Origin: Bugula neritina
Taxonomy: Eukaryota; Bryozoa; Gymnolaemata; Cheilostomatida; Bugulidae
Direction: 5' to 3'
Assembly: GCA_964035545.1 (NCBI GenBank)
Contig: OZ037767.1
Coordinates: 30,246,128 to 30,310,127, forward strand
Length of the DNA stretch: 64,000 nucleotides
A program made the translations under genes and the position numbers. Shown in pieces: positions 1 to 62,756 of this stretch. How positions within the stretch are numbered: the stretch's first letter is position 1; every line of letters begins with the position of its first letter. The notes beneath the pieces were generated by a model that did no database searches, was not told where the DNA came from, and saw only the letters and a list, made by a program, of their open reading frames with translations.

Positions 1-879
1 CCAGACGCAGTGGGTGAGGCTCCACCCCTCCTGGAGCCCCACCGCCAGCCCAACCGTCGAGGACGGGCCACCCAGCCCCGAGAGGTGGAAATTGTGGTTC
101 CCAGAGAGTCGGACCAGGAGCAGGCCGCCTTGATAGAGCAGCTGGAGCGACAACAGAGTGAGGAGCAGGAACAAGAGCGACAGCAAGCCCGAGGACCACC
201 ACCCCTCCAGGGGGAGGACACCCCCACCCGTGTTACGGGTGAAGGCGGGGACCCCCCTTCAGCGGTAGCTGAGGAGCCACTGGCACCAGCAGCGCCTATA
301 CAGCAGGAACGGAGTCAGAGGGCCAGAAGGCCCCCCAGATATCTGGCGGACTACCACGTGGGACACATGGAGATGTCCCCACAGAGGAGTGGTACACCCA
401 GTACGGGTAAAAACTCCGAGCCTCAGTTGCAGAACAGCCCTGGCAGTACCGGACTTCTCCAAAAGCAATTACCCCCAGACCAGCACAGTCACCTGGACAA
501 CAGGTACCCAGCTCTTTCGGGTAATGTTGGCCGAGGTAGGTGGCGATACCCCATACCTATGATTGACTTGGACCCCCCTCCAGAAGAAGAAGATGAGGCC
601 ACGACCCTACTACCCGCCCAGCTGATTGGAGATGGCGCTACCGCAGCCACCACCCAGCCGCTACGGGTAGCGCTGGCAAGACTGGGCAAGGAGCCTGGAG
701 CACCAGGCAGCCAGATAGAAGAGAAGACCCAGCCGACCCACTCACAATTGCCCCGTCACGGGCAGAGTATGGCACTTCCTTACCGCGAGTGCGTCTTTGA
801 TAGTGCAATCCATGCCTGGTCCAGTATCCTTGACCGATGTACCGAAGAGATAGAAAGCCTGGTGCACCACCTCCAATGA
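1..879 (+). CDS. C-terminal tail of LTR-retrotransposon polyprotein (partial)
   Basis: The frame is open from base 1, so the 5' part lies outside the window; it stops at 877-879. The 293 visible residues are Gln/Glu/Pro/Arg-rich and low in complexity. The segment QRARRPPRYLADYH near residue 107 resembles the basic, proline-rich tail that follows integrase in Gypsy-type Pol proteins. No protease, reverse transcriptase or integrase motif is visible, because those would lie upstream. Base composition is much more GC-rich than the flanks, consistent with an inserted element. About 200 bp after the stop come a polypurine tract and an LTR, which fits the 3' end of an element read left to right. It could instead be a third ORF of the element. 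The assignment rests mainly on position before the tract and LTR. Confidence 0.72.
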   Translation, partial: PDAVGEAPPLLEPHRQPNRRGRATQPREVEIVVPRESDQEQAALIEQLERQQSEEQEQERQQARGPPPLQGEDTPTRVTGEGGDPPSAVAEEPLAPAAPIQQERSQRARRPPRYLADYHVGHMEMSPQRSGTPSTGKNSEPQLQNSPGSTGLLQKQLPPDQHSHLDNRYPALSGNVGRGRWRYPIPMIDLDPPPEEEDEATTLLPAQLIGDGATAATTQPLRVALARLGKEPGAPGSQIEEKTQPTHSQLPRHGQSMALPYRECVFDSAIHAWSSILDRCTEEIESLVHHLQ

Positions 880-11100: not shown

Positions 11101-14100
11101 CTGTGAACAAACCGTTAGTAATATACTAGTAATACGTTAGTAATATATTAGTAATATGTTAGTAATATACTAGTAATATACTAGTAATACACTAGTAATG
11201 CAGTTAGTAATATACTAGTATATTACTAGTAATACACTAGTAATACACTAGTAATATATTAGTAATACACTAGTAATATACTAGTAATATAGTTAGTAAT
11301 ATACTAGTAATACACTAGTAATATAGTTAGTAATATATTAGTAATACACTAGTAATACGCTAGTAATATATTAGTAATACACTAGTAATATACTAGTAAT
11401 ATAGTTAGTAATATACTAGTAATACACTAGTAATACACTAGTAATGCAGTTAGTAATATACTAGTATATTACTAGTAATACACTAGTAATATATTAGTAA
11501 TACACTAGTAATATACTAGTAATATAGTTAGTAATATACTAGTAATACACTAGTAATATAGTTAGTAATATATTAGTAATACACTAGTAATATACTAGTA
11601 ATATAGTTAGTAATATACTAGTAATACACTAGTAATACACTAGTAATGCAGTTAGTAATATACTAGTATATTACTAGTAATACACTAGTAATACACTAGT
11701 AATATATTAGTAATACACTAGTAATATACTAGTAATATAGTTAGTAATATACTAGTAATACACTAGTAATATAGTTAGTAATATATTAGTAATATAGTTA
11801 GTAATATACTAGTAATATAGTTAGTAATATATTAGTAATATAGTTAGTAATATACTAGTAGTATAGTTAGTAATATATTAGTAATATAGTTAGTAATATA
11901 CTAGTAATATAGTTAGTAATATATTAGTAATACACTAGTAATATGTTAGTAATACACTAGTAATACGTTAGTAATACACTAGTAATACGTTAGTAATACG
12001 CTAGTAATACACTAGTAAGACACTAGTAAGACACTAATAGTATACTAGTAATATGTTAGTAATATACTAGTAATATAGTTAGTAATACACTAGTTATACA
12101 GCTAGTAATACACTAGTAATACGTTAGTAATACACTAGTAATACGTTAGTAATACGCTAGTAATACACTAGTAAGACACTAGTAAGACACTAATAGTATA
12201 CTAGTAATATGTTAGTAATATACTAGTAATATAGTTAGTAATACACTAGTTATACAGCTAGTAATACACTAGTAATACGTTAGTAATACACTAGTAATAC
12301 ATTAGTAATACGCTAGTAATACACTAGTAAGACACTAGTAAGACACTAATAGTATACTAGTAATATGTTAGTAATATACTAGTAATATAGTTAGTAATAC
12401 ACTAGTTATACAGCTAGTAATACACTAGTAATACGCTGCTAGTTATACAGCTAGTAATACACTAGTAATACAGCTAGTAATACAGCTAGTAATGCACTAG
12501 TTATACAGCTAGTAATACGCTGCTAGTAATACAGCTAGTTATACAGCTAGTAATACGCTAGTAATACGCTGCTAGTTATACAGCTAGTAATACACTAGTA
12601 ATACAGCTAGTAATACAGCTAGTAATGCACTAGTTATACAGCTAGTAATACACTAGTAATACAGCTAGTAATACAGCTAGTAATGCACTAGTTATACAGC
12701 TAGTAATACACTAGTAATACAGCTAGTAATACAGCTAGTAATACACTAGTAACACACTAGTAATACAGCTAGTTATACAGCTAGTAATACGCAGCTAGTT
12801 ATACAGCTAGTTATACAGCTAGTTATACAGCTAGTTATACAGCTAGTAATACACTAGTTATACAGCTAGTAATACACTAGTTATACAGCTAGTTATACAG
12901 CTAGTTATACAGCTAGTTATACAGCTAGTTATACAGCTAGTTATACAGCTAGTTATGTACCTCAAACTCCTCGGCAAGGACAGCCTCGATGTCTTCTTCC
13001 TCTTCCTCTTCCTCTTCCTCAGCCTCTTCTTCAGCCTATTCAAGAGATCAATTACTCACCTAATTAACGTTTGAAATCAACACATGAAATTCACACACAA
13101 ACATAATGTACTGTTATCTATTTTACAGTTCCTAGAAAAGTGAATTCACAAAGTTCTCTGTAGCACCTTTACCTCTTCCTCTTCATCCATTTCTGCCTTC
13201 GCAGCTTCCTTTTCTGCTCTACGTTCTTCCAGTCTCTTCTCCTTCTGTTTAACCAATTCCCTTCTCCTCTTTTCTATTTCTTTCTCTCGTAACTTCTTTG
13301 CTTTGTCTTTTTGGCGTTGTCTTCGGGCAAGTTTCCTGAAAAAGGACAGAAATTGCTTGCATCAGGTGAATATTATTGACTCTGCCGGAAAAAACTCCTG
13401 AAAAGATGGTTAAAAAGGCATTCGCTTTTTCATAATACTCACCGATCTCGTTTAGCACTCCACTTTTCCATCTTAGGAGGCAGCAAACGCCCGATGATGT
13501 CGCTGTCTTCTGAGTTGATAGTCACCGCGGTGTCGGGATAATATCCACTCTCCGCCATCCACCTCACCTCATCTGGTATTCGGGGGAAACCCTCCAGTAT
13601 AAAGCCGGTACTTCTGCAAACATACACACACCTCTACATACTCAAGATACACCATCACCACACAACCAGTTATATACAGCTTGAAGAAGAACTTAAAAAA
13701 ACTGAATTGCCCAGACAAAGACTTTACCTGAAGGGTTCGCTGCTCCAGAACTGACCAATCACCTTCTCCAGAATCTCTGGCGGCAGCATGTCATCCATAC
13801 CAGACTCTAGGAATGATTTGATAGCCTCTTCTTCTTCTGTATATTCAGCCTCGGCTTCCTCTTCAACCTACACATAATAAAAGGGCATACATGGTAAGAG
13901 CTGAGGCTAGAAAGTATTAGGCAAGTAAGGCATAGTCACATGAAGACTTGGTTAAAGCTCAGTTACTTGTGAGTATAAGCAAACAATGTGAGCATCAAAA
14001 GCAAACAAAATTGAACAGCCGTCTAAGTTTTTACTAGTTACAGGTGTGCATATTTGACACATAGCTACAGGTGTGTATATGTGACGCATAGTTACAGGTG

Positions 14101-20100: not shown

Positions 20101-23100
20101 CAGTGGAGGAGGCCATGTTGATATAACATTAAGGAGACGTCAAGCTACCCACCCGTCTTGGCTATCATTGTTACACATTGACAAATTCCACGATCTAAAA
20201 GTGAGCAGTGAAGGATCTCTATCAAAAGTTTTCACTATATCAAAGTCCATAGTGATGACAGAAAAAGGAAATGTGGAAAGACAACTTCTATAGCTAAGTG
20301 ATATCCGTATAGTTCAACACCAAAGAAGAAATGTAGCTAATAAAGATAAGTTAGTTGAAAGCACAATATCTAGTAAATTGAGAAACTGAACATATCTAAC
20401 TAAATAATGCACCACAATGCCACACGCTGCTACAGAACGCTACTACAACAAACTAAAAGGAATGTAAAGTCAACACAAGTTTGGCTAAACTTTACATGCA
20501 TGACTCACACACTGAGCTCTACCTGAGACTGAAAAGCTGGTTGAAGTATAAATCCTATAGACATCTTGGACATAATATTTCACTAATTTTACTAACAGCT
20601 TCCAGTAGTGAACTGAAATAGCCCAAGTACCTCAATCTAGTCTATAAACACGTACAGTCGGGTGGTCAGCTATCTACCTGAGTTCCTCTTGCTGTAGCCT
20701 CATAGCCTCAGCTTCTCTAGCCAACCTCTCTGAGATCTGCTGATCCACTTCCTTCCTGTTGAGAGAGTACCACCTCTTCAACAGCATCAGACCTCCCTCC
20801 GAGATGTCCTTGAGGAAGACAGCATCGTCTGGCAGCAAGTTCTTGTCTCCCATCATCGCCCACTGCTCTCGTGTCTGCGGGAAATTATCCAGAATCCATC
20901 CACCAAATCTGCAAGTGACGGATATAGTTTGTTGGCGCAACAAGTGACTAAGCAGAGCAGCTCTGCAGTGAATGACACAGTTGCTGTTGGTTCACAGTAT
21001 AAACATAAAAGTATAAATATATAAAATATGATATCAAAAATAAACATAATGAAAACAATATCACTAAACTGTTGGTAATAATTTCTGCATCACTGAATAA
21101 CATATCATATCAATTTAATTAGTTTAACAAATATATTTAGGAGTTATCTTTTCTCAAGAGAAGTATAGGTGGAAAGTTCCAGAAACACGTAAGCTTTAAT
21201 CGAGTCATGAACTAATTTATGAAAATAATGAATACAATTTGAAAATTACTGGGAGTAGCAGAAGAATCATTTATAATTTTTGTAGATTCACTTTCTTTGA
21301 ACAAAAGTCAAAACATTTTAGTCTTAGAAACAATTTGAATGACTTTTACTACAGTACGTCATCTCATCTACACATCACACTTACCTCGACTTTCTGTCAT
21401 CTACACATTACACTTACCCCAACTATCTGTCGTCTCCACATCACACTTACCTCAACTATCTGTCATCTCCACACCACACTTACCCCAACTATCTGTCATC
21501 TACACATTATACTTACCTCAACTATCTGTCATCTACACATTATACTTACCTCAGCTATCTGCTACTTACACATCACACTTACCTAAACAAACTGTCGCCT
21601 ACACAGTACACTTACCCCAACTATCTGTCACCTACACAGTATACTTACCCCAACTATCTGTCATCTACACATCACACTTACCCCAACTATCTATCATCTA
21701 CACATCACACTTACCTCAACTACATGTTCACAGTAGAAAATACTCACCGTGGCCCGCCTGGTGTTTTCAAAGCTACCTCCTCCTCAACTTCTTTGATAGC
21801 AGCTTCCACCAAATCAACAGTCACCTAGAATGTCATGAAGTGTTTCAGTGAGACATGCTGTACCATGCATCTAATATGTATGCAAGTATATATGTAATAT
21901 AGAACTCTTATATTATATTATATTTATAAGTTTATACTGTAATATACAAGTGATCTAAGGTTTATAAAGCCTAGTATCAGCACAGCCCTACCTATTACCT
22001 AGTATCAACACAGCCCTACCTCAGCGGATAAATTGATTGGCTGTTTCTCTGCTAACTTGATGGCATTTTCAACAATAGCCTTGACCTCTGGATGAGTTTC
22101 ATCTACACTAATCTCAGGCGGAGGTGGGGTGGGTTGAGGGGTCTCGTCTATAATAAAAAGCACTGATGTAAAACCGAGCATGAATGATGAAATATATAAC
22201 ACAAATTTATCTAGCTTTTTATAAAATTAAACAAAAAAGCAACTTTGACACGAACCTATTGCGAGCAGCTTTAAATCAATTTAACTGAATAATATATTAT
22301 TATCTTCATATTAACAATAATATCTCACTGGTGGCCCAAACAGTTTCACCAATAAAGTGTTGAAATCAACTCAGTTAATCTGACTAACATGAAGTGATAT
22401 TGGCTAGAAATGCGTAGAAGAGCACAGATCTGGTATGACACAATGCGGCGCATAGATAGACAGGTAGTATGCTAACTGGAACAAGCAACTCCAAAGCAGC
22501 CATAGCTGAGTGCAACACAATGCAAGGCTGCAACTTCTAAATCGATGTGAAATATAGTTTAATCTAAATGTTCCCGAAATAAAATAGAAAAACAATTTTC
22601 TTTCTATTTTAATAATAACTGAAAAACATACCAAACCCTTTCAATTTTTTTTATTTCAAATTGTATCGGTTTTGAATGCATAAAACAAAAACTCAAATCT
22701 ATTTCACTGAGTTTAGAGTTCATTGCAGCCTCGCTCAATCAAGTATAACATCCTACTCATTAACAATCATCTAACCACACAATAAAAAGAAATCATCTAA
22801 AAATTTTAAAACGCTGAAGAAATTTAATAAAAAAAAAAACGGGTAACAGAGACAATTCGGATGCATGCAACGAGGATTTGTATGCAAGGCTAATCACAAA
22901 CATCAAAAGCAGAGTACGGAAATCTCAGTCGGGACTTGCCTTGTTCATCGACAAACTGAACTGATTTCTTGACCCCTGTTAAAGTGTAAGTATCTACATG
23001 TAACAGACAGGGATTACATTACTACAAACATAGTATTGAAGCTTAGAGAAAGGAATATGCTTACACAAGCAACAGCGGGGCTTAACTATGCTTACAACAC

Positions 23101-37382: not shown

Positions 37383-40300
37383 TTATGCCACCAGGGTGAG
37401 CCCTGCACCATTTCCATCCACCATTTTCCTGAAAGCTGGTCCAAGTTCGTCATGGAACTCTTTCTGATTTCGAGCAAAGTCAAATATCTGCAAGAGAAAT
37501 TTTTAAGATTCGAAATTATTACCAAAAGTAATTTTCTCCAAAGATTCGATAATTTTGCTTACTTTTATGAGCACACAACTCCTCAGCTAACACTAGGGCT
37601 TTTTATAAATATTTCACTTCCTTTTGATCCTTTAAACACCAAAGCTTATCAACCATGATTGAAACTAGTACTAACTACCAGTTCAGTGGTACTAACTGTA
37701 TGGGACATTAAGTGAGACAGTTGACAGAGTTGAAAGCTAGTGCAATAATTACTCTTTTACTGACAGAGATACAATTTTCAGGTATCCTTCCTTTCCCTAT
37801 TCAAATATTGCCTGTAATATATGTACAGTTTAAATAAAGTAAGTTTTATCTCCAATTTATTTTTAAATTCAAGATGGTTGCTCGTGTGGGAGTAATTTAC
37901 TGTATAACGAAGGGAGCCATAAGTAGTTGTGATATACTAACGATATGTGCGGAGGGGGTATCTGTACACTCGTCCATTGTTGTACAGGAAGGTTCGTCAA
38001 AGGGCCCTGACACATCATAGTTCTTGAGCATAGACATATCTGCATGCAACATGAGGAAATTAGAATCTGGTCGTGTCCATGCCGTAGAGCTGAAACAAAC
38101 AATGGTTAAATGTGTAAAGTGCGCTATATTTTACTTATTTAATTCATTTTAAAAATTGTTGAAAAATCCATGGTGAAATTATTTCGTCCAAGTTTGAAGG
38201 TCATGTGATACCAAACACTTTTCATATCATTAATAATTTTCGAGATTCACAGAATCTATCAGAAAAATGAATGTTACAATATATGAAAGCGCGAATCACC
38301 ATAAATGCATTATGATCATAAGGTTAAAAATACTTAAATGGTGCCTCTTTTAGGCCTGCATGTCTTCCTACATTGTACTCTGTAGAATACATTTATAAGA
38401 ACTGGTGTAGGTTTCTATTATAGCCTATAATTCATTTCCTGCCAGCATACAACCTGCTTCTGTGAGAACCCCTACATATAAATGCTCTAACCTGCTAGTG
38501 AAATGCAACAAGTAACTTTCAAGGAGTTGTCTTTACATCACTTATAGAGAATATTTGTAGAGAGAGGAGTGTGAAGTTGCAGCAAATATTTGATGCAAAT
38601 AAAATTATTAATTAATTTCATATTGAAACTATATTTATATCACAAAATAGTATTTATCAACAGTTCTTAAAAAAATTAAGTTTAGGGAATTGCAATTTGT
38701 TGCATGAAATTCTTTCCGTGTCTTCATTTTTATAAGGTCATTCATATGGCAAATTACGGCACAAAAATTCTCTGCTTCATGAACTTAGTGTATCATCTGG
38801 GTTAATTCTTTGCATATTTTGTGACTGCCAGTAAAACAGTAAATGAAAGTTATCTGCTCTTTGAAAACAAGGGCACCTAACTCCCAAGAAGTACAAACTC
38901 ACTTGACAAATCTGTTTCTGAAGGGTTTAGCGACCCAGTCTCCGGATGCCATGTTTAAGAAGAAGCCATTGTCGAGTCTGCCGGGGTGACCATCCCAAGT
39001 CCCTGCGAACCCAGATCTGCTGGTGTGTGCTCCACCCAATGAGTGACAACCTGCGTAATGCTTTATATTCAATATGCATATATAATTTACATGCAACCAT
39101 ATTAGTCTGTCACGTTTTATAGATAAATGATAGAGTACTTATGTAAATTATGCAATGTAATTTATATGCATACAGTATTCAAAGTGAAATAAAAGTGCAA
39201 ATTACTGTTTTAAAATGTAACTAACCCTAGCTACTCTTTGAGTACGTCTGGCATGTGGCTACCACAAAGTTGATATGATTGCAATAGCAGTCTCATTCTA
39301 GGTTAAAGAAAAGCTACCAACCCATCAGAGCGACTGCCTCGCGAGCTGTAATTCCGAACTCATCCTGCAGAAGTGGTATTGTGTTGAGGATGGTGCCGTG
39401 TGGAAGATGGCGGTTTGGAAAACCTTGTGCCGGGTTGCAATCCCGTCTACCAATTGAGTATGGTATGTCCACAGTGCCATCTGTTAGAGAAAGAATGTAT
39501 ACTGTACAATACACGAGTTGCTGTAACAAGTAGTTACTGTAGTGTGTTAGTGTAGCCACTCTTTATAACAAGTTACTGTAGCCATGTAACTATTGTAGCA
39601 AGTAAAGTCGCTAGTTAATATCTCGAGACAAAGTATAGGATAGCCTTGTAACAAACACTGCAGGTTACATGTTGATACTCTTCCACCAGTTACTCACTGG
39701 CAAATGTAGCAGCTTGCTTCAAGGACTCTGTTCCAAGTAGAGCAAATATGTCTGCCAGGGACAGCTGTGGTGCATAGTCATTTTTGAACTTCTTAGCAAA
39801 ATCTACTGTACTCTTTAGCCCTTAAAATACACAGTGTTATAAAATCTCTGAAGTTACTTTAAAAAATACTACCCTTGTTCATACTACACAAACGTAGCTT
39901 GAAAGTGGCTCTTTGGTTTGAAAAGTTGAATAATAGTGGTTTATAGCAACATGACTCAGACTACGTCTAGCTAATATACACATTTGTCGAGGAGGAGCAT
40001 ATAATTGGTGCTAAATAAGAATCAACTTATGCAGAAGATAAAACTTTAAGGGGAGAAGAATATAGTGCAATTTCTGCTCACCTCTGTTCCCGGGATTTCC
40101 TTCTGTGTCAACGCACCCGTCACACCCCCCAACACAATCGTGGAATGAAATCTGCACTAATCTGGGCAAAAATGTCATCTGAAAACAATAACAATAACAA
40201 TTTCTGCATCTTCTTAAAATTGCACATACCTATAATTTACATAAAAACTGATATTATTATGTGTTTATATGTAAAAAAAATTATGCAGAAAGGCAAAAAT

Positions 40301-46591: not shown

Positions 46592-49500
46592 CTAGAGGTA
46601 AGGCTGCCACCCAATGTACATGACAGCCAGGTTGGCGGGGTCCACAGCCTGCTGTATCAGGTAGTTCACCTGGCCGCTGACGCTCAGGTAAGAGTTCTGT
46701 TCCAAACCTCTCAGCTTGTTCCTAACGAGCAGCAGAGCGTTAGCAGCTTGCTGATGTTTGTTTGTGTCAGCAATGGCATTACTATTGGCTGTTTCCTCTC
46801 TGGCAGCAGTGGAGGCTGACCTATTAGCTTGAGTACCTGTAAACAGTACAGCATGACAAAATGTAATACAATACAACATGTATGTAATGCAGTGTAATGT
46901 AATGCAGTACAATAAAATACAGTTCAGTACAATACAATGCAAAGCAATACAAAGCAATGAAATGAAATCGAGCACAATTTAAAAAAGTAAAGCTTTGAGT
47001 GAACCACCATTGATTTTATAAACTACCACTCATGCTTCAAACTAAAATTAAAATATCTATTATACTGAAACTCAGTCTACTACTGCAAGTCAAATGAAAC
47101 TGAAAGAATACGCCAACTGAATATAACAATCAAATGAATACAGCCAAATCATAATGACGGATGCTAGACAAAAAATTTTTCAGGTAAAATGAGGAAGCAA
47201 AGATCAGCCAACTATTCCATGTGAAAAGTTCGTCAATAAAGCGTCAAATACGAGGAGAAGTTTTACGTAACATCTGCATCATAATAAGCTGTGCTAACAC
47301 CTTTTCAGCAGAGTGAAAGTAAGTGAAACTACAGAACAGAGAGTAGAGCTGCAGGGGAACTGATCAGACAGGACATTTTCATTAAAGACAGATGCCTGCC
47401 GTTTCACTGCACCATCAAATTAATGCTCCAACTGGCCGTCAGTTCATGATTTCTTTAACTTCCTACATTTTATTGTCTTGAAACTGAATAGACTATTGAA
47501 AAATTTTATTTTGAAAAGTTTGGGCAGTGCCTATAGACACCAGCATTGACAATAATCGGATCCAAAGGCTAAAGTCAACAAATATTTTGCTAAATCACTC
47601 CGTTAATTAATTTTAATTATCAATATTAACAGGAATGTCATTTACTCTTTGCTATTACCTCGAGCTCAAAGTAGGCATTGTTTAAAATATTTTAAATTAA
47701 AGATAAAGTAAATGAGTCAATGAGTTGGAACCTGACAAGGCATGTTACTGCTAGTACTATATAGATTGAGTGTTACCTCACTGAACTATCTAATACTATA
47801 TGAAGGAAACAGTAAAGTATTCCAATGTTAGTAGTAGTGCATGTAGAGGAGACAAATCCAACAATTTACTGCAGATGGCGTGAATTCACTAATAAATATG
47901 CCACTATTTAATAGCATCTAAATAGTTACATAACAGACAGACAACATATAGAATATCATCTCCGCAGAGTTGGTACACAATACCACCACCGATGGCAGCA
48001 CAGACAGCAATTATACAACAGAATCATATCACATCAGACTCACCCAAAATGACAGATTGGCTGGCCAAGGAGGGGTGTATAAAGCTGTCTACACCAGAGG
48101 GGAGAGGGGTTCTCAGATCGGTTTGCATCCGCTCCAGCTGCTCAGCTGAAAGGGTCCACTCAAGGATGGGGTCATCGATGAGCACCTGCAGGATGGTGTT
48201 GATTATTCTGCCAGATCCCCTTAATACTTTCAGTGTCTTCTCACAACACCTAGCGAGAGAGAGGATAACTCTAACAGTGACAGTACTTTACAGTACTCCG
48301 GATATGGAGTGTTTTTATATTGCTGTATGACTATATTACTATATTAAAATAAAACACATTTGCAGCATGCAGATAGCCCAAGGCCGCCTCTAGAATATGC
48401 AAAGTAGAGAGCATTTCTGCACACCACCAACAGACTCGGATTCACTTCAACCTTCATTGTACCGTCTCACAGTGTGCATGAAGTGCAGTTTAGAATCCAA
48501 GTCTACAAAAGCTATGAGAAGTTCCTAAACTATAGACTGACCTCCTGAAAGCACCATTAACTCCAGTAGGTCCGAAGCCATCAACTAGGTTCCTAGTAAG
48601 TCTGAAGGGTACAATCTCAGGCTTAGGAAGAGCTTTACCCTGCTCAAAGGCTACTCCGAAGTCAATGTGAATGAGTTCCCCAGAGTTCTCATCTATAAGT
48701 ATGTTGTTAGTGTGTCTGTCACCAATACCCAGCACATAGCCAACTACAACACAAAACCATGGAGTGTCAGGTCAAACCACATTTCTGGTGGGAATTTCTT
48801 GAAGGTGCGTTACATCAAATATTAGCTCTCTATCTCACTGGCTGAATGTTACTCTTGTACTTACTCATTGAGGTCAAGGTTACTCTAGTACTTACTCATT
48901 GAGGTCAAGGTCACTCTTGTACTTACTCATTGAGGTCAAGGCTACACTCTGACTGTACTTCCGACGGGCAGACAACCACCGCTCTGGCTCTGTGAATCTT
49001 TCCAAGAAATAATGGCGGAATATCGGTGGGATTTTCCTGCAGAGGTTGTTGTAGGCTTTAACAAAGCTGTCCCGGGAGTAGCTGCCGCTCACGTACTTGT
49101 CTTGTAGCACCGACTGTCAGCGAGTCAACAACAGAACGTTATTGTAAATCAAGTTGTATAGAAGAAGACAACTCCAGAGTCAGCTGATAATTCAAATTGA
49201 TGTGAAATTAAAATGTGGAGGCGCCTTGAGTCTTTAAATTTCTTGTTTTACATGAAATTAAGAACTCTACTATGTTCTCATTTACAAAATAAATGTTGAA
49301 TAATTGTAATATAGTTGTTGTATTATATTATATACATACATTTTCAATGGCTTTCAATTTCAGTAAAACAGTTAATGATGCAATTTATTTTATAAACATT
49401 TAGAAACAAATTTTGATATCATCAGTTTGACTATCTAGTCAGTATGAGTATAATTTCCAATGTGACTTACTAATTCCTGCCTAGCTTTCTGAGGAGGAGT

Positions 49501-52500: not shown

Positions 52501-55500
52501 GTTTTAGTTCAGATATAGATAAGTATTAGAATAATCTACCTACTACTAATTAATACTGTTGTCATAAAAAATAAGCTAGAAAATTTATGTGTTCAGCTGA
52601 TAAAATATTTTATTACTTTCACTACAGTCAATCAGTTTTAGTATAAAAAAATTCAACTACAAACACAAAGCTTGCAATTTAACTTCCTTACACTATGTGC
52701 AACATATTTTGGATAATAATAGCACCTATCAGACTGATTCAATTAAAAAAGTCTACAGACAAGACCTAAACACTACCTAAATTATAACTTGCTGATTTAG
52801 CAATGCACATTTAAAAGTATTCAAGAAGTGATGCTCACCATTTGCAAGCCGAGAGCGTTCTGCCATCTTGACAGCCGGCAGCAAGTAGTTGTCAGTTATG
52901 ACATCAGGACCCTCTAATTTTGTGCTGGTTAGGAAGTCTCCGTAGATTCTCAACGCTCTCGAGTAGAAGCACAGGCTAGAATTGTCTTCTCTTTTCTATA
53001 AAAAATGCGTGTATATTTCTAAAGGTTGACAATCAGTCTAAAATGACTAAACATAATGCTGACACAAGGTAGCTAGTAGCTGCCGTAGAACAGATTACCT
53101 GAGAGAGAGTTTGAAGGTCATCGAGGCAGCGTTTCATAACATACATAGCTCTGTCCTTCTCGCCAAATGCCCAGTACACGAGTCCACTCTCCAAGTCACA
53201 CTCCACACACCAGAGATCTGGGTAGAGTCTCTTGAATCTGGTTAGAACCATCTCACTTGTCTGTAGAAGTTATAGCATACTATATACTGTACTATACAGT
53301 ATATAGTATGCTATATACTGTACTATCAATCTGGTACAGTATACTATATGATATACTATGATATATGTTAGACTATTTGGTATACTATACTTTCTAATAC
53401 ACCTTAGTATACCATATAGTATAGTATATCTGTTAATATACTCAAAAGTATAGTACATAGTATGCATCACATTCGAATTCATTATAGAACATAATATATT
53501 AAAGCAGCTGTTTATTACTGAGATTTGACTGAGAATCAGTCAATACAAACGCGTTGAAAGTAAAGAGTTACATATCATACAGATGGCATGTTGCATTGTT
53601 TAGCCTTTAGACTGAGAGACACTGTAGAGTCCACTAGATATCTGTGTAACGTCTCACATCCACCCTCACTCCCGGATCCAGCTAAACTACGCAGTATCTG
53701 CTTCAGCTCTTGTGTTCTCAAACTTGATTGGCCAGTTTTTGAGTCACAAAGTGAATACTGACAGTTGTCTAACTTCTTCCAACCAATCACAGCCAGACCT
53801 CTGTTCTCATCACTACATACAGTACAATCAGTGCAGACAACTCCTTATAGTGAACACAGCTGAAGGCAACAAACTATAGTAGAAAAGAAATGCTAAAGAT
53901 ATTATGAGGCATACGCTACAGCTTCAAAAAATATTCTTGCCAGAGCAACTTGTATGACTGCAGTTGACAAACTGTGCAATACGTGTTTACAGGAAATATA
54001 CAGGTGGAGGTTTTTGTGCTGATCTAAAAAACCTCCTTTCTAATTACTAAAATAAACTAATTTTAAAATTTCCAGAGTTACAGTCAAATCAATTTGGATG
54101 AGTAGAATCCACACACTGGTGAACTAAACAGCATATATTAGAAAGTTAACAGGTACCACCTGCCGCCTCTGACTGCCACCACATCCTCCAACGTCTGCAC
54201 AAGTTCAAGGTCAGCCAGGGCACTGATGAGATGCTGACCATTCAGGACTCGCCTGCTGTCTACCAATGATGTCTCACATATCTTCTTCATATGCTCTATC
54301 AGAGAAGTCGTGCTGTGAGAGGTACTTGTCACCAGTGACTTGGTAGCCATGTACATGCACTCATTGAATCCAACATGGGGAGATAACCTACAGTATCATA
54401 TTTTACTCATGTTGTGCAAATATAATGCAATAAAAATATCTATTCAATTGTGTTCGTTCAATAAAACTTTTTAATCAATTGATTTTATCTTCAAAGCTCA
54501 CTGAAAAAGTTTTAACTTAGAAAATTAAAAGAAAGTAAAGGTGGTTAATGGGTAGTATTGGAGTTACTACTTCTAAATTAGGTTAAAATCTTAGGCCTGC
54601 TTTGTAGTACAATATCTAAGACAATTAAAGGAAGTTAAAACTAAAATGTTTGTCTGAAAATTAGATGACGTGTATGAAACACAAATAGCCTTAAAGTTTG
54701 TTTTGCAGGTAGGAGAGCGTGCCTTGCGGTAGCTGGTCAGTATAACAGGTGAGTATTATGTTTAGTAACAGTCAATAGGTAAGTCAACAGGCAGGTAAAC
54801 ATACCTGGTAACAGTAGGTAAACATACCTGGTAACAGTAGGTAAACATACCTGGTAACAGTAGGTAAACATACCTGGTAACAGTAGGTAAACATACCTGG
54901 TAACAGTAGGTAGACATACCTGGTAACAGTAGGTAAACATACCTGGTAACAGTAGGTAAACATACCTGGTAACAGTAGGTAAACATACCTGGTAACAGTA
55001 GGTAGACATACCTGGTAACAGTAGGTAGACATACCTGGTAACAGTAGGTAAACATACCTGGTAACAGTAGGTAAACATACCTGGTAACAGTAGGTAAACA
55101 TACCTGGTAACAGTAGGTAGACATACCTGGTAACAGTAGGTAAACATACCTGGTAACAGTAGGTAAACATACCTGGTAACAGTAGGTAAACATACCTGGT
55201 AACAGTAGGTAAACATACCTGGTAACAGTAGGTAAACATACCTGGTAACAGTAGGTAAACATACCTGGTAACAGTAGGTAAACATACCTGGTAACAGTAG
55301 GTAAACATACCTGGTAACAGTAGGTAACTTGTCCCACTGCATGCTGCTCCAAGCCTGCTGGTATCTCATCTCTCTAGTCTCCTCTGATATGCTGTCTACT
55401 GTCTGAATATTCTGCAGGAAGGAGTCCAGAAGATGAGGCAAATCACATGATTGGAGAGTCTCGAGTCCGACGGATAACGGATTGTCTAAAACCAGAAAGC

Positions 55501-58500
55501 ACAAGATTTTCAAAACACAAAAACCCAAAAAAATGGAACAAGTAAAATGCTGTCAGCAAAAAATTGAGTTAAATTCTAAAGTTTTAGGGGGAATATTTTT
55601 CAATTTATTGCATTCAAAAGGAAGCCAAATTCACCAAAATTAGCCAAAATTACTATGTTGCCAATTACTACTGCAAGGTCAGCATATAAAGATGTAATTG
55701 AAGATGCCAATGCCTAGTATGGCGCAGTAGCCTACTTACCCATATCACCAGAGAGCATCAACTCCTTGACTCTCAATTCTCGGCTCCAGTTATTTTCCTG
55801 GCTGTAGTGAGTCAACCTGCAGCAAAATATGAACAGTAACAGAGTTATTCTGCAACAGAAAAATCCTAATATCTTAGGTACAAGGTAGAAGTTGCTACAA
55901 GTAGCTGCACGATGTACATCTATTTCTGAAGTGGAGTAAAAAGCTTGACATTTTATAAACCGAACTCCATAGAGTTGTGCATCTTTGAAATAAAAGAGCT
56001 TTTTGTGATTCTAAAGACAAACGAAAGCCAGGTGTGAATAAGAAAAATGAAACAACCTAAAATTGTCACAGGATGAAGCAACAATACAAATGTTTACATT
56101 TACCTCTACTGAAAGTTTAAACTATATACATTTACCTCTACTGGAAGTTTAAACTATATACATTCACCTCTACTGAGAGTTTAAACTATATACATTTACC
56201 TCTACTGAGAGTTTAAACTATATACATTTACCTCTACTGGAAGTTTAAACTATATACATTTACCCCTACTGGAAGTTTAAACTATATACATTTACCTCTA
56301 CTGAGAGTTTGAACTATATAATGTACATTTACCTCTACTGAGAGTTTAAACTATATACATTTACCTCTACTGAGAGCTTAAACTATATAAAACTAGTTTA
56401 GCAGGCCAAGTTTTGACTCACCTAGATTTTACATCCTCCAACTTGCTGACTCCCCACCCACACAGTATATCTATGTCATCTAGAGCACCATAGACTTCAA
56501 TCATCACTGACTGAGCATTGAATGGAGGTAAGGGAGGGGATGAGGCTTCCCTGAAACACAATGAGAGTACAGAACTAATGCAAATGCAATGTTTATTTTC
56601 AGTCTAGTGTTGGATAATCATACAACCCGATGACCCTCATGATGGTAGAACCCAAGGCTGAATATACCACAGCAGCTCTGTATGATAACTTCTTTCAGGC
56701 AATTTCCCAAGGAATAATTGTCAACATTTGACACTAGATGTCCTGACACCCCATAAAGTACTAGCAACAGCTCTCACAGAAGAATGATCATTTACAGAAT
56801 GGGCAAAAAGCTTTTCAGTACACCATAACTGGGAGAGCATAACTCCCGAGTTATACGTGAGAGAACAAACCTGGACTGGTATATACGGAGCTCAGCGTAA
56901 AGTGCTGCCATGGCATAGTTCTTTACAAACAATGCTGCCTTAGCCAGTAAAGAGTAGTTGACATCGAGCCAAAAGTTATTGCGCCACGCTGTGTGAACTT
57001 TAACCCTACAACAGCATATAAAATACACCAACGTAAAAGTTAGCAAACCGAGTGGAAACTAAAAGATGATCTGATGAATGAAAACCATCAGCAAAAATTA
57101 TAGAACAAAGAAACTTCTAAAGATTTGATCAAAATATACTATAATATTCCAATACACTATAATATTAAAATATACTATAATATTATAATATACTATAATA
57201 TTAAAATATACTATAATATTATACTATACTATAATATTATAATATACTATAATATTAAAATATACTATAATATTATAATATACTACAATATTAAAATATA
57301 CTATAATATTATAATATACTATAATATTAAAATATACTATAATATTATAATATACTATAATATTAAAATATACTATAATATTATACTATACTATAATATT
57401 AAAATATACTATAATATTATAATATACTATAATATTAAAATATACTATAATATTATAATATACTATAATATTATAATATACTATAATATTATAATATATT
57501 ATAATATTCTAATATATTAAAATATTCTAATATATTATAATATTCTAATATACTATAAAATTATAACATACTAAATTATTTAGAATATTATAGTATACAA
57601 TTGACATACCTTTCCGTGTAGTACAAGCTATTCTGTTTAGTTCTGAGAAATTGAACAATCCTCAGCATCATGACAACCACACTTTGGCAAATGCTACTTC
57701 TTTCCTGTTACACAGCATATAATATTACTTTATATAAATACTATAGATATAGATAATAGCCCTTGAGGACAATAGCCCCTGTGGGCAATAGCCACTACGG
57801 AATTATTCACAAATTTAACTAAAGCCACGCACTCAAAACCCTGCTCACCGTTGCTGACATTGCATCAGTTAGTACAGAGGTGAATATAGAGGACAGTTTT
57901 ACTCTCAGGGAGTTATCTCCCTTTAATAGAATATCGTGTATGAGTAAAGGCAGTAGTAGCTCACAGAACTGCTCCTGTAACAGAGGAAGTAGTCACACAT
58001 AAAAAGGATCAAAATAGAAGAGATATTTCACTAATTTGCCCAGTCATTTAAACGATTAAATCAGAATAATATATAAAAACGATATAATAAACAATATATT
58101 ACACTATATAAGACACTGTAATATAAGAAAATATAATAATTATAGTATAGTGCAGTAAAATAATACATAGTTACACAAAATTATTCTTAGATGTTTTTTA
58201 GCAAGACCCAGCTGCCGCAGCAAACATGCTCAGACGAGAGTAAATTGTGCAAACACTTTAACCTATATATAATTTCCTCACTTATTTACTGCAGTGCTAT
58301 ACATAATTTATGTAGCAAATTTTGGCTTTGTTGGGTCATATTTGCCGGGCATGTTGAATTGCTATACCGATAGCTTACCTTAACAGCACACAATGGAGCC
58401 ATTAGCCTGAGGATGTCAGTCTTGCATGCTGAGGTTGCATGGCGGGTCACCAGAACCACCCACTCTTTGTATGTAGATGTTTGATAAGAAGTCCAGTTGT

Positions 58501-61077: not shown

Positions 61078-62756
61078 TCATCTCTCAAGCTCCACAGCTA
61101 GTGTGTACAGCATTTCTACGTCAAAGCGCTGAAAAACAGCAGCCAAAGGAAAATCATAATCGGTTGCCAGATCTGTTAGTTTGTAAATGATTTCAGGGGC
61201 TAAATTTTGAGATTTCAGTAGTTTGTCTAAGAACACATGCTCGTACCAGTATGGGAATAGAAACTCGTGCATAACGTGAGTCGAGTCTGGAGCGCAAAGC
61301 TTACGGAAGCCTTTGGCGGCATCGCGGGCATCTTTGTATTGCTGACCTTGGAGTAGGAACTGATACATAAATCTCGCAGAAGGTCTGTATCCAGGCACAA
61401 CATGCAAACACTGAACAATTGCTTCAACAAAGTAACTTTTTGCATGAAGCGTCTCTCTGATATGATGCCTCAACTTGGCCCGGCTTTCCTTGGCCAGCAA
61501 CGGGAGCTCGCTCAGCTCATACGGAGTGAGTCGCCTTTGATACCTGATCACAAATAGCAACTCAAACATCATGAGTCCAAAGGACCACATATCCACGGCA
61601 TATGAATATTGCCTATCGGGAGCATCAAACCTATGACGCTGTTTTCTTTTAATTTGACGGGTTTGGCAAAACTCCTGGCATTGGCTAAAACCAAAGTCGG
61701 CTATAACTATTTGAAGTTGCATAAACTCGTGGCCATAGAATCTTAGTAGAATGTTGTTTGCCTTCAGATCATTATGAATGTAGCCACAGCTGTGCAAGTA
61801 CACTAGTCCACGCATAATACACAGCATAATTTCATTTGCGATACATTTTGTAGGAAGTGCGAGGGCTCTGGTGGTAGTATCTGCATCTCCCCACCCCAAC
61901 ACATCTCCCAAATCATCAGGGTACCATTCAAACACCATGAAGAAAGTAGTGCCTGCAACAACCAACCCAAGTACTAATCAAACTTCTTTGTTTTTGATAT
62001 AAAAAACAACATATAGACTGGAATAGAAAATTTGCAGATGTACGGTCATTTAGTTCCTCAGTGCAGACCTTCAATAAATATACAGATTGTATATTTGTTC
62101 AGAAAATTTTAGATTGAAAAGAATTTTGCATTTCAGTTGCTGGGTCTAAAATATAGATTTATTTACTGTATTGATTAGTTTGAAGCATGAGTAGAAGATA
62201 TCAGTGGTGACTATCACAAATGAGTGTTAGATAGTATAGTATAGTTATAGTATAGCTAAAGCATATACATATTGTAAACATATATTTAAACATATAGCTA
62301 CGTTTGAAACTCACCCAAGAAATAACTGAGATGATCGAGTGGAACATTAGCACCATCCTCCAGCACCTCCACTACTTTCTCAGCATCAATCTCTGGCAGC
62401 ACAATCCAGTTCAAGTCAGGATGACTTTTTATGAGATTTTCGTGTTTCAACTGCAACTCCTTACAGATGACAGCTTCTTGACAAGCAAGAGTGAACAAGT
62501 TTAGAGTGTGGTAGTCCTGCACAGCTTGTTGATCAATTTTCAATTCCTTAATGGCGAGGATCTGATCGATGTTGTTTCTGTTTCTAACCTTGTGAATCTT
62601 TCCACACCGTATATCAAGAGGAAACCGATCTTCCACGAGACTTTCATAATGCTCGTCAAAATATTCAGTGTCTTTACAGCTGTGCTCAATCAAACCAGCA
62701 AACTGTCTACACATGTTGTCTGGTAATAAATCACGCAGTTTATAATTAGTAGCCAT
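61078..62756 (-). CDS. Divergent protein kinase with HND catalytic loop
   Basis: Two exons, 62315-62756 and 61078-61952 (GTGAGT donor, TTGTTGCAG acceptor, phase 1), give 438 residues. The fold is a eukaryotic protein kinase: LAIKELKI has the ATP-binding Lys70, and QEAVICKE (93-100) gives a candidate helix-C Glu. The hinge region is FFMVFEWYPDDL. YIHNDLKANNILL (205-217) is the catalytic loop with Asp209 but HND in place of HRD, and IADFGFSQ (231-238) has the DFG. AVDMWSFGLMMFELL follows. No clear glycine-rich GxGxxG is visible (RCGKIHKVRNRNN stands there). The first about 45 residues and the C-terminal about 100 residues are not recognised. All three key catalytic residues are present, so it is probably active. 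The start is the first ATG after an in-frame region without better support (an upstream in-frame ATG lies at 62804). Confidence 0.86.

Follow-up and report, generated by a model that had tools for sequence, protein, structure and literature searches.

The window examined here, by which we mean the whole stretch of 64 kb, carries on its minus strand a gene that its matches identify as ATM, the name already given to it in the preliminary description. Pieces of the FAT region joined by hand matched the ATM chains of PDB, which we take to be human, with an E value of 1.3e-13, and the joined C-terminal pieces matched both PI3_PI4_kinase (4e-59) and FATC (2.2e-16). One exon of this gene ends in a minisatellite in which every unit carries a splice donor. 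The features of that junction, and the other arrays with donor or donor-like words in the window, are as follows.

54160..54387, minus strand: next ATM exon (reading frame and ATM match)
54388..55310, minus strand: intron, 3' end TACTGTAG (sequence and reading frame)
54793..55327, minus strand: 23-bp minisatellite of 23.3 copies with 23 identical CAG/GTATGT (Tandem Repeats Finder, site positions and unit comparison)
54799..55290, minus strand: 22 later identical donors, 7 in frame and 15 not (site positions and frames)
55305..55313, minus strand: first donor CAG/GTATGT, which yields the conserved protein (gapless ATM match across the junction)
55311..55485, minus strand: ATM exon; the repeat begins within it and takes up its final 17 nt (reading frame and ATM match)
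48848..48945, minus strand: second donor array of ATM (31 bp x 3.2), which takes in the donor ATGA/GTAAGT of a kinase-region exon
21364..21722, minus strand: 33-bp array of GRG/GTAAGT in another gene, whose real donor at 21747 precedes the first donor of the array by 33 nt
56095..56389, minus strand: intronic 32-bp array of ATM with the weaker donor-like GAG/GTAAAT, downstream of the real donor at 56421 and not anchored at an exon

The exon end at 55311 reads TTACCTACTGTTACCAG and the intron begins GTATGTTTACC. The word CAG/GTATGT (CAGGTATGT) occurs 23 times on the minus strand between 54804 and 55310, the first intronic G lying at 55310 and the last at 54804, and all 22 spacings are exactly 23 bp, as had been claimed. 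A 23-fold register of this exactness is far beyond chance. Tandem Repeats Finder reported 98% matches within the array; of the 22 full units, 9, 13, 14 and 18 carry a T>C change at one shared position and there is no other difference, and the last unit is partial. In anatomy the array thus fits the IFI6 type of minisatellite, where each unit of a repeat at the end of an exon carries a donor, and the duplicated segment bears AG/GT in every copy. When the repeats were collapsed, TTACCT was found on both sides of the exon-intron junction, 23 bp apart. The array's own reading frame had no protein relatives at E 0.001 among 7,999 candidates scored, and no Rfam family (at the gathering cut-off) or tRNA was found in the 64-kb window. 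Masking of the later donors by hairpins was considered and rejected: the array RNA folds worse than its shuffles (z +2.7), the unit folded as DNA behaves about like shuffles, and the AGGTA/TACCT pairing open to donor 1 is the same as that of the other donors.

Joining donor 1 to the acceptor that ends at 54388 gave an ATM alignment that runs without a gap across the junction, through a 21-residue stretch, which bears out the two exons proposed earlier (55311-55485 and 54160-54387). Every step to a later donor lengthens the exon by 23 nt; of the 22, 7 stay in frame, at the price of 23 extra residues for every three units, and the other 15 lead to a stop in the next exon. If the intron is fully retained, translation meets a stop just past the array. 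The preliminary description had stated that the repeat contains no stop, and this is correct for the units themselves; its corollary, that use of a later donor or retention would merely add residues, did not hold, since most later donors and full retention alike run into a stop beyond the array. Its point that the working donor has to be picked among identical neighbours is supported.

Several other elements of the window deserve description. On the minus strand at 21364-21747, eleven GRG/GTAAGT copies begin exactly one 33-bp period past the real donor ACG/GTGAGT of a gene with adenylate-kinase-like pieces (weak Pfam matches). Two acidic coding stretches on the minus strand are separated by an intron that consists mostly of a 1.8-kb array of 11-bp units (TAGTAATACAC; 11116-12953), which starts 7 nt past an apparent donor and ends 15 nt before an apparent exon. 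Another ATM intron holds an AT-rich 18-bp array of 24.5 copies without donor words (57133-57573). Outside the arrays, a long single-exon open frame at 61081-61977 (minus) encodes a protein kinase domain and is 85% identical over its full length to a JGI metagenome protein, so that some related species has probably had its DNA sequenced. A 292-codon open frame at 1-876 (plus) has both its start and its end outside the window and is GC-richer than its surroundings, and two exons at 38902-39562 (minus) resemble heme peroxidase by eye, their joined pieces giving no Pfam match.

The assembly (215.8 Mb in 295 contigs) was searched for three tandem copies of a donor word with gaps of 6-36, a search that skips very common words. 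Three copies of CAGGTATGT gave 100 matches (50+50), which we grouped by hand into 24 arrays, and the reversed word gave 0+12, that is, not zero. The word CAGGTAAGT gave 320 matches (117+203) against 0+1 for its reversed control, and at least 20 arrays among the matches listed. A knock-out word differing from the first by one letter, GT to GA (CAGGAATGT), gave 0+5 matches in two places that lie 23 kb apart and have a common unit. As single words in 200 kb of sampled loci, CAGGTATGT occurred twice, CAGGAATGT three times and the reversed word not at all, which makes the reversed word the weaker control; since CAGGAATGT is about as frequent as CAGGTATGT and yet makes few tandem matches, the tandem excess is tied to the GT. 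The donor array of ATM is therefore not alone, and the same architecture recurs across the genome.

Anchoring at an exon end was judged by reading frame and a shared tail, with the grouping of arrays and several exon calls made by eye. By this measure 16 of the 24 arrays found with CAGGTATGT begin at an exon end (15 of 23 besides ATM), and 13 of these have homology support (12 besides ATM). The matches were to Peptidase_M10, an RRP6-type exonuclease, the RSE1/DDB1/CPSF1 propeller, a protein kinase, SNX17 FERM, kinesin, EGF, B-raf, poly(A) polymerase and a calcium channel, together with two below the Pfam cut-off, an ATG4-like C54 and uDENN. Genes such as ATM, B-raf and the calcium channel indicate an animal genome. 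Three arrays (L030, L044 and L046) were anchored by frames alone, having no Pfam match and, for L030, no PDB match either; the remaining eight (L029, L033, L037, L038, L040, L042, L047 and L050) were either unclear or not anchored. For CAGGTAAGT, 19 of the 20 listed arrays were fetched, the remaining one being the array of L033, and 18 could be assessed, the stretch taken for L063 lying wholly within its array. Ten of these 18, among the matches listed, look exon-anchored and eight are not anchored or unclear. Homology was found for one of them only, L054, a phosphofructokinase by PDB; Pfam run on nine of the anchored arrays (L069 not among them) gave one match and none for the other eight, and L070 had no PDB match. 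Because the search words are themselves donor words, the anchored fractions tell us that donor-word arrays come largely from real donors, and say nothing of a preference of arrays for donors. Not every donor-word array is in the sense orientation, as a short intron of an SMC2-like gene shows, which is nearly filled by an array with its donor words on the antisense strand (L025:5530-5630).

As in ATM, the first donor yields the conserved protein in B-raf (L031) and in Exosome component 10 (EXOSC10, L035), the join being gapless over the junction, and the SMC2 match (chain 9f5w_A) also spans the join at L025. In 29 anchored arrays (19 + 10) we scored the later donor-like sites that reach 5 bits; for the ten, only the first part of each array was covered, so that their counts are low. 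Out of 289 such sites, 195 lead to a stop, 45 shift the frame and 49 remain open, and in 17 of the 29 arrays no later site is open. All later donors are open in L030, L031, L057 and L070, and their use would be tolerable there. Judged by these reading frames, the conserved genes, if they are working, must use the 5'-most donor for most of their splicing. Donor strength cannot explain this choice, because in 28 of the 29 arrays a later donor equals or exceeds the real one.

We sampled 264 kb, made up of the window and 20 loci of 10 kb at round coordinates on five contigs. Minisatellites are dense in this sample, 27.8 kb of which lies in 136 tandem arrays that do not overlap. A donor word scoring 8 bits or more was present in 9 of 103 array units and in 1 of 103 reversed units (p 0.019), as scored with a donor matrix that was not trained on this genome. 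Arrays beside coding sequence showed no clustering on the donor side (20 v 17 among 133, and 8 v 11 at a stricter threshold). Five arrays were accepted as holding a coding-exon donor with its exon tail, namely the two in ATM, L018, L025:4033-4236 and L022:3972-4016, and none as holding an acceptor with its exon head (one-sided p 0.03), a weak count on a small base, in which some exon calls were made by eye, L018 was included on inspection after the coding score had missed it, and L022 rests on reading frame. The junctions considered numbered 15 per side, several of them antisense or doubtful. Seven candidates had a donor inside the array; for the one at 21364 the real donor lies a unit further upstream, and L021:8730 and 9281 (plus) were not accepted. 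Six had an acceptor inside (L025:9266, L014:3773, L022 minus, 9912, 48848 plus and 1329), of which the first three were inspected and not accepted. Extrapolating very roughly from two or three cases in 200 kb of sampled loci, exon-anchored donor arrays could number perhaps a few thousand genome-wide.

It might be supposed that several of the donors are in fact used, giving ATM a family of isoforms in steps of 23 residues together with out-of-frame products. All 23 ATM donors are identical and seven of the later ones are in frame, and human IFI6 is reported to employ two downstream repeat units as donors (PMC4526556). Across the class, however, 240 of the 289 later sites break the frame, and repeat lengths show no clear bias towards multiples of three (9 of 19 anchored arrays, p 0.22), and we hold the use of several donors to be unlikely. 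An alternative suggested by the unit borders is that each unit works as a very small GT-AG intron or as a recursive site, in which case a wrong first choice would be repaired by splicing from donor 1 to the end of a later unit. Recursive splice sites consist of an acceptor joined to a donor, and CAG/GTATGT at each border resembles such a pair: every ATM unit starts with GTATGT and ends in CCAG, the sequence before that end is fairly pyrimidine-rich (fraction 0.73), in keeping with its earlier description as acceptor-like, and an AG precedes the real donor in 17 of 19 exon-anchored arrays. A 23-nt intron is too short to be spliced, and therefore only the removal of several units at once could work. 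Moreover, 15 of those 17 arrays were found with a word that contains CAG, pyrimidines before the unit ends are near 0.5 in most other arrays, and the sites here are spaced 23 bp apart in a sequence that derives from the end of an exon. No AG precedes the donors in two of the 19 arrays, L018 and the second one of ATM, so recursive removal is not needed for the class, and we regard it as very improbable.

Selection might instead have kept the repeated donors, which could, for instance, protect a long intron by serving as a U1 platform. None of the 23 ATM copies shows a change in its donor letters, and in the diverged 33-bp array at 21364-21722 the scored copies all keep GTAAGT. Against this, donor columns vary little less than the remaining columns in the nine arrays with strong donors (0.060 v 0.077) and do not differ from them in the weaker classes. 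We regard such selection as very improbable. As for the repeat number being an artefact of assembly, a near-perfect repeat of 535 bp is easily collapsed or expanded; the variant units are nevertheless scattered within the ATM array, and many arrays of unlike units have the same architecture, leaving next to no probability for this reading.

We consider it probable, from the arrangement of frames and repeats, that these minisatellites are born by duplication across exon-intron junctions and grow on the intron side, that splicing takes the 5'-most donor with the later copies as passengers, and that they form a class in this genome. A short segment spanning the junction would be duplicated in tandem, perhaps by slippage or unequal exchange between short repeats such as the TTACCT pair of ATM, and the array would then extend towards the intron. 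The copy bound to the exon would remain the working donor, with the later copies carried along in the intron. The spliceosome may mostly take the 5'-most of identical donors, either through exon definition or because it is transcribed earliest. A duplication over a donor would be harmless as long as splicing holds to the exon-bound copy, and thus free to become a minisatellite, whereas one over an acceptor would set extra exon heads upstream, and splicing may use these. Since arrays beside coding sequence show no side bias, selective survival suffices and seeding at donors is not required. More tentatively, and with rather less than even confidence, we suggest that the arrays form a large natural series in which donors and exon ends have been copied from a few to more than 20 times under one rule, that the 5'-most donor wins even over identical or stronger copies.

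A minisatellite in human IFI6 (6-16, G1P3) was reportedly described by Turri, Cuin and Porter in 1995 as providing multiple splice donor sites. From the accessible parts of the literature this gene is the nearest precedent, in that a minisatellite lies at an exon end and its repeats can act as donors; the present case differs in the 23 identical donors of ATM, an exon tail within the unit, mostly frame-breaking copies and many unrelated host genes in one genome. Tandem genomic duplication of an AGGT-bearing segment is a route to intron gain according to the available part of the source (PMC4974935). The duplicated segment with AG/GT is the common element as far as that text goes, whereas here the duplication sits at the donor of an existing intron, which it lengthens, and the array stays within one intron. 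In the earthworm, intronic minisatellites are described with no connection to donors in the accessible part of that paper's account. The open-access literature on minisatellites at splice sites or in sponge genomes, in its accessible portions, gave no account of donor arrays in many genes.

Choice among equal 5' splice sites has often been studied with two competitors, as in DOK7, going by the accessible part of the paper (PMC5585400). The native introns described here offer up to 23 identical donors with a clear frame cost for a wrong pick, and so constitute a natural test of splice-site choice. The arrays also illustrate one way for minisatellites to arise at exon ends and for introns to grow longer, and gene predictors are likely to be misled by them. 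If the 5'-most rule is true, the places in which minisatellites can persist would depend on donor arrays being tolerated and acceptor arrays not.
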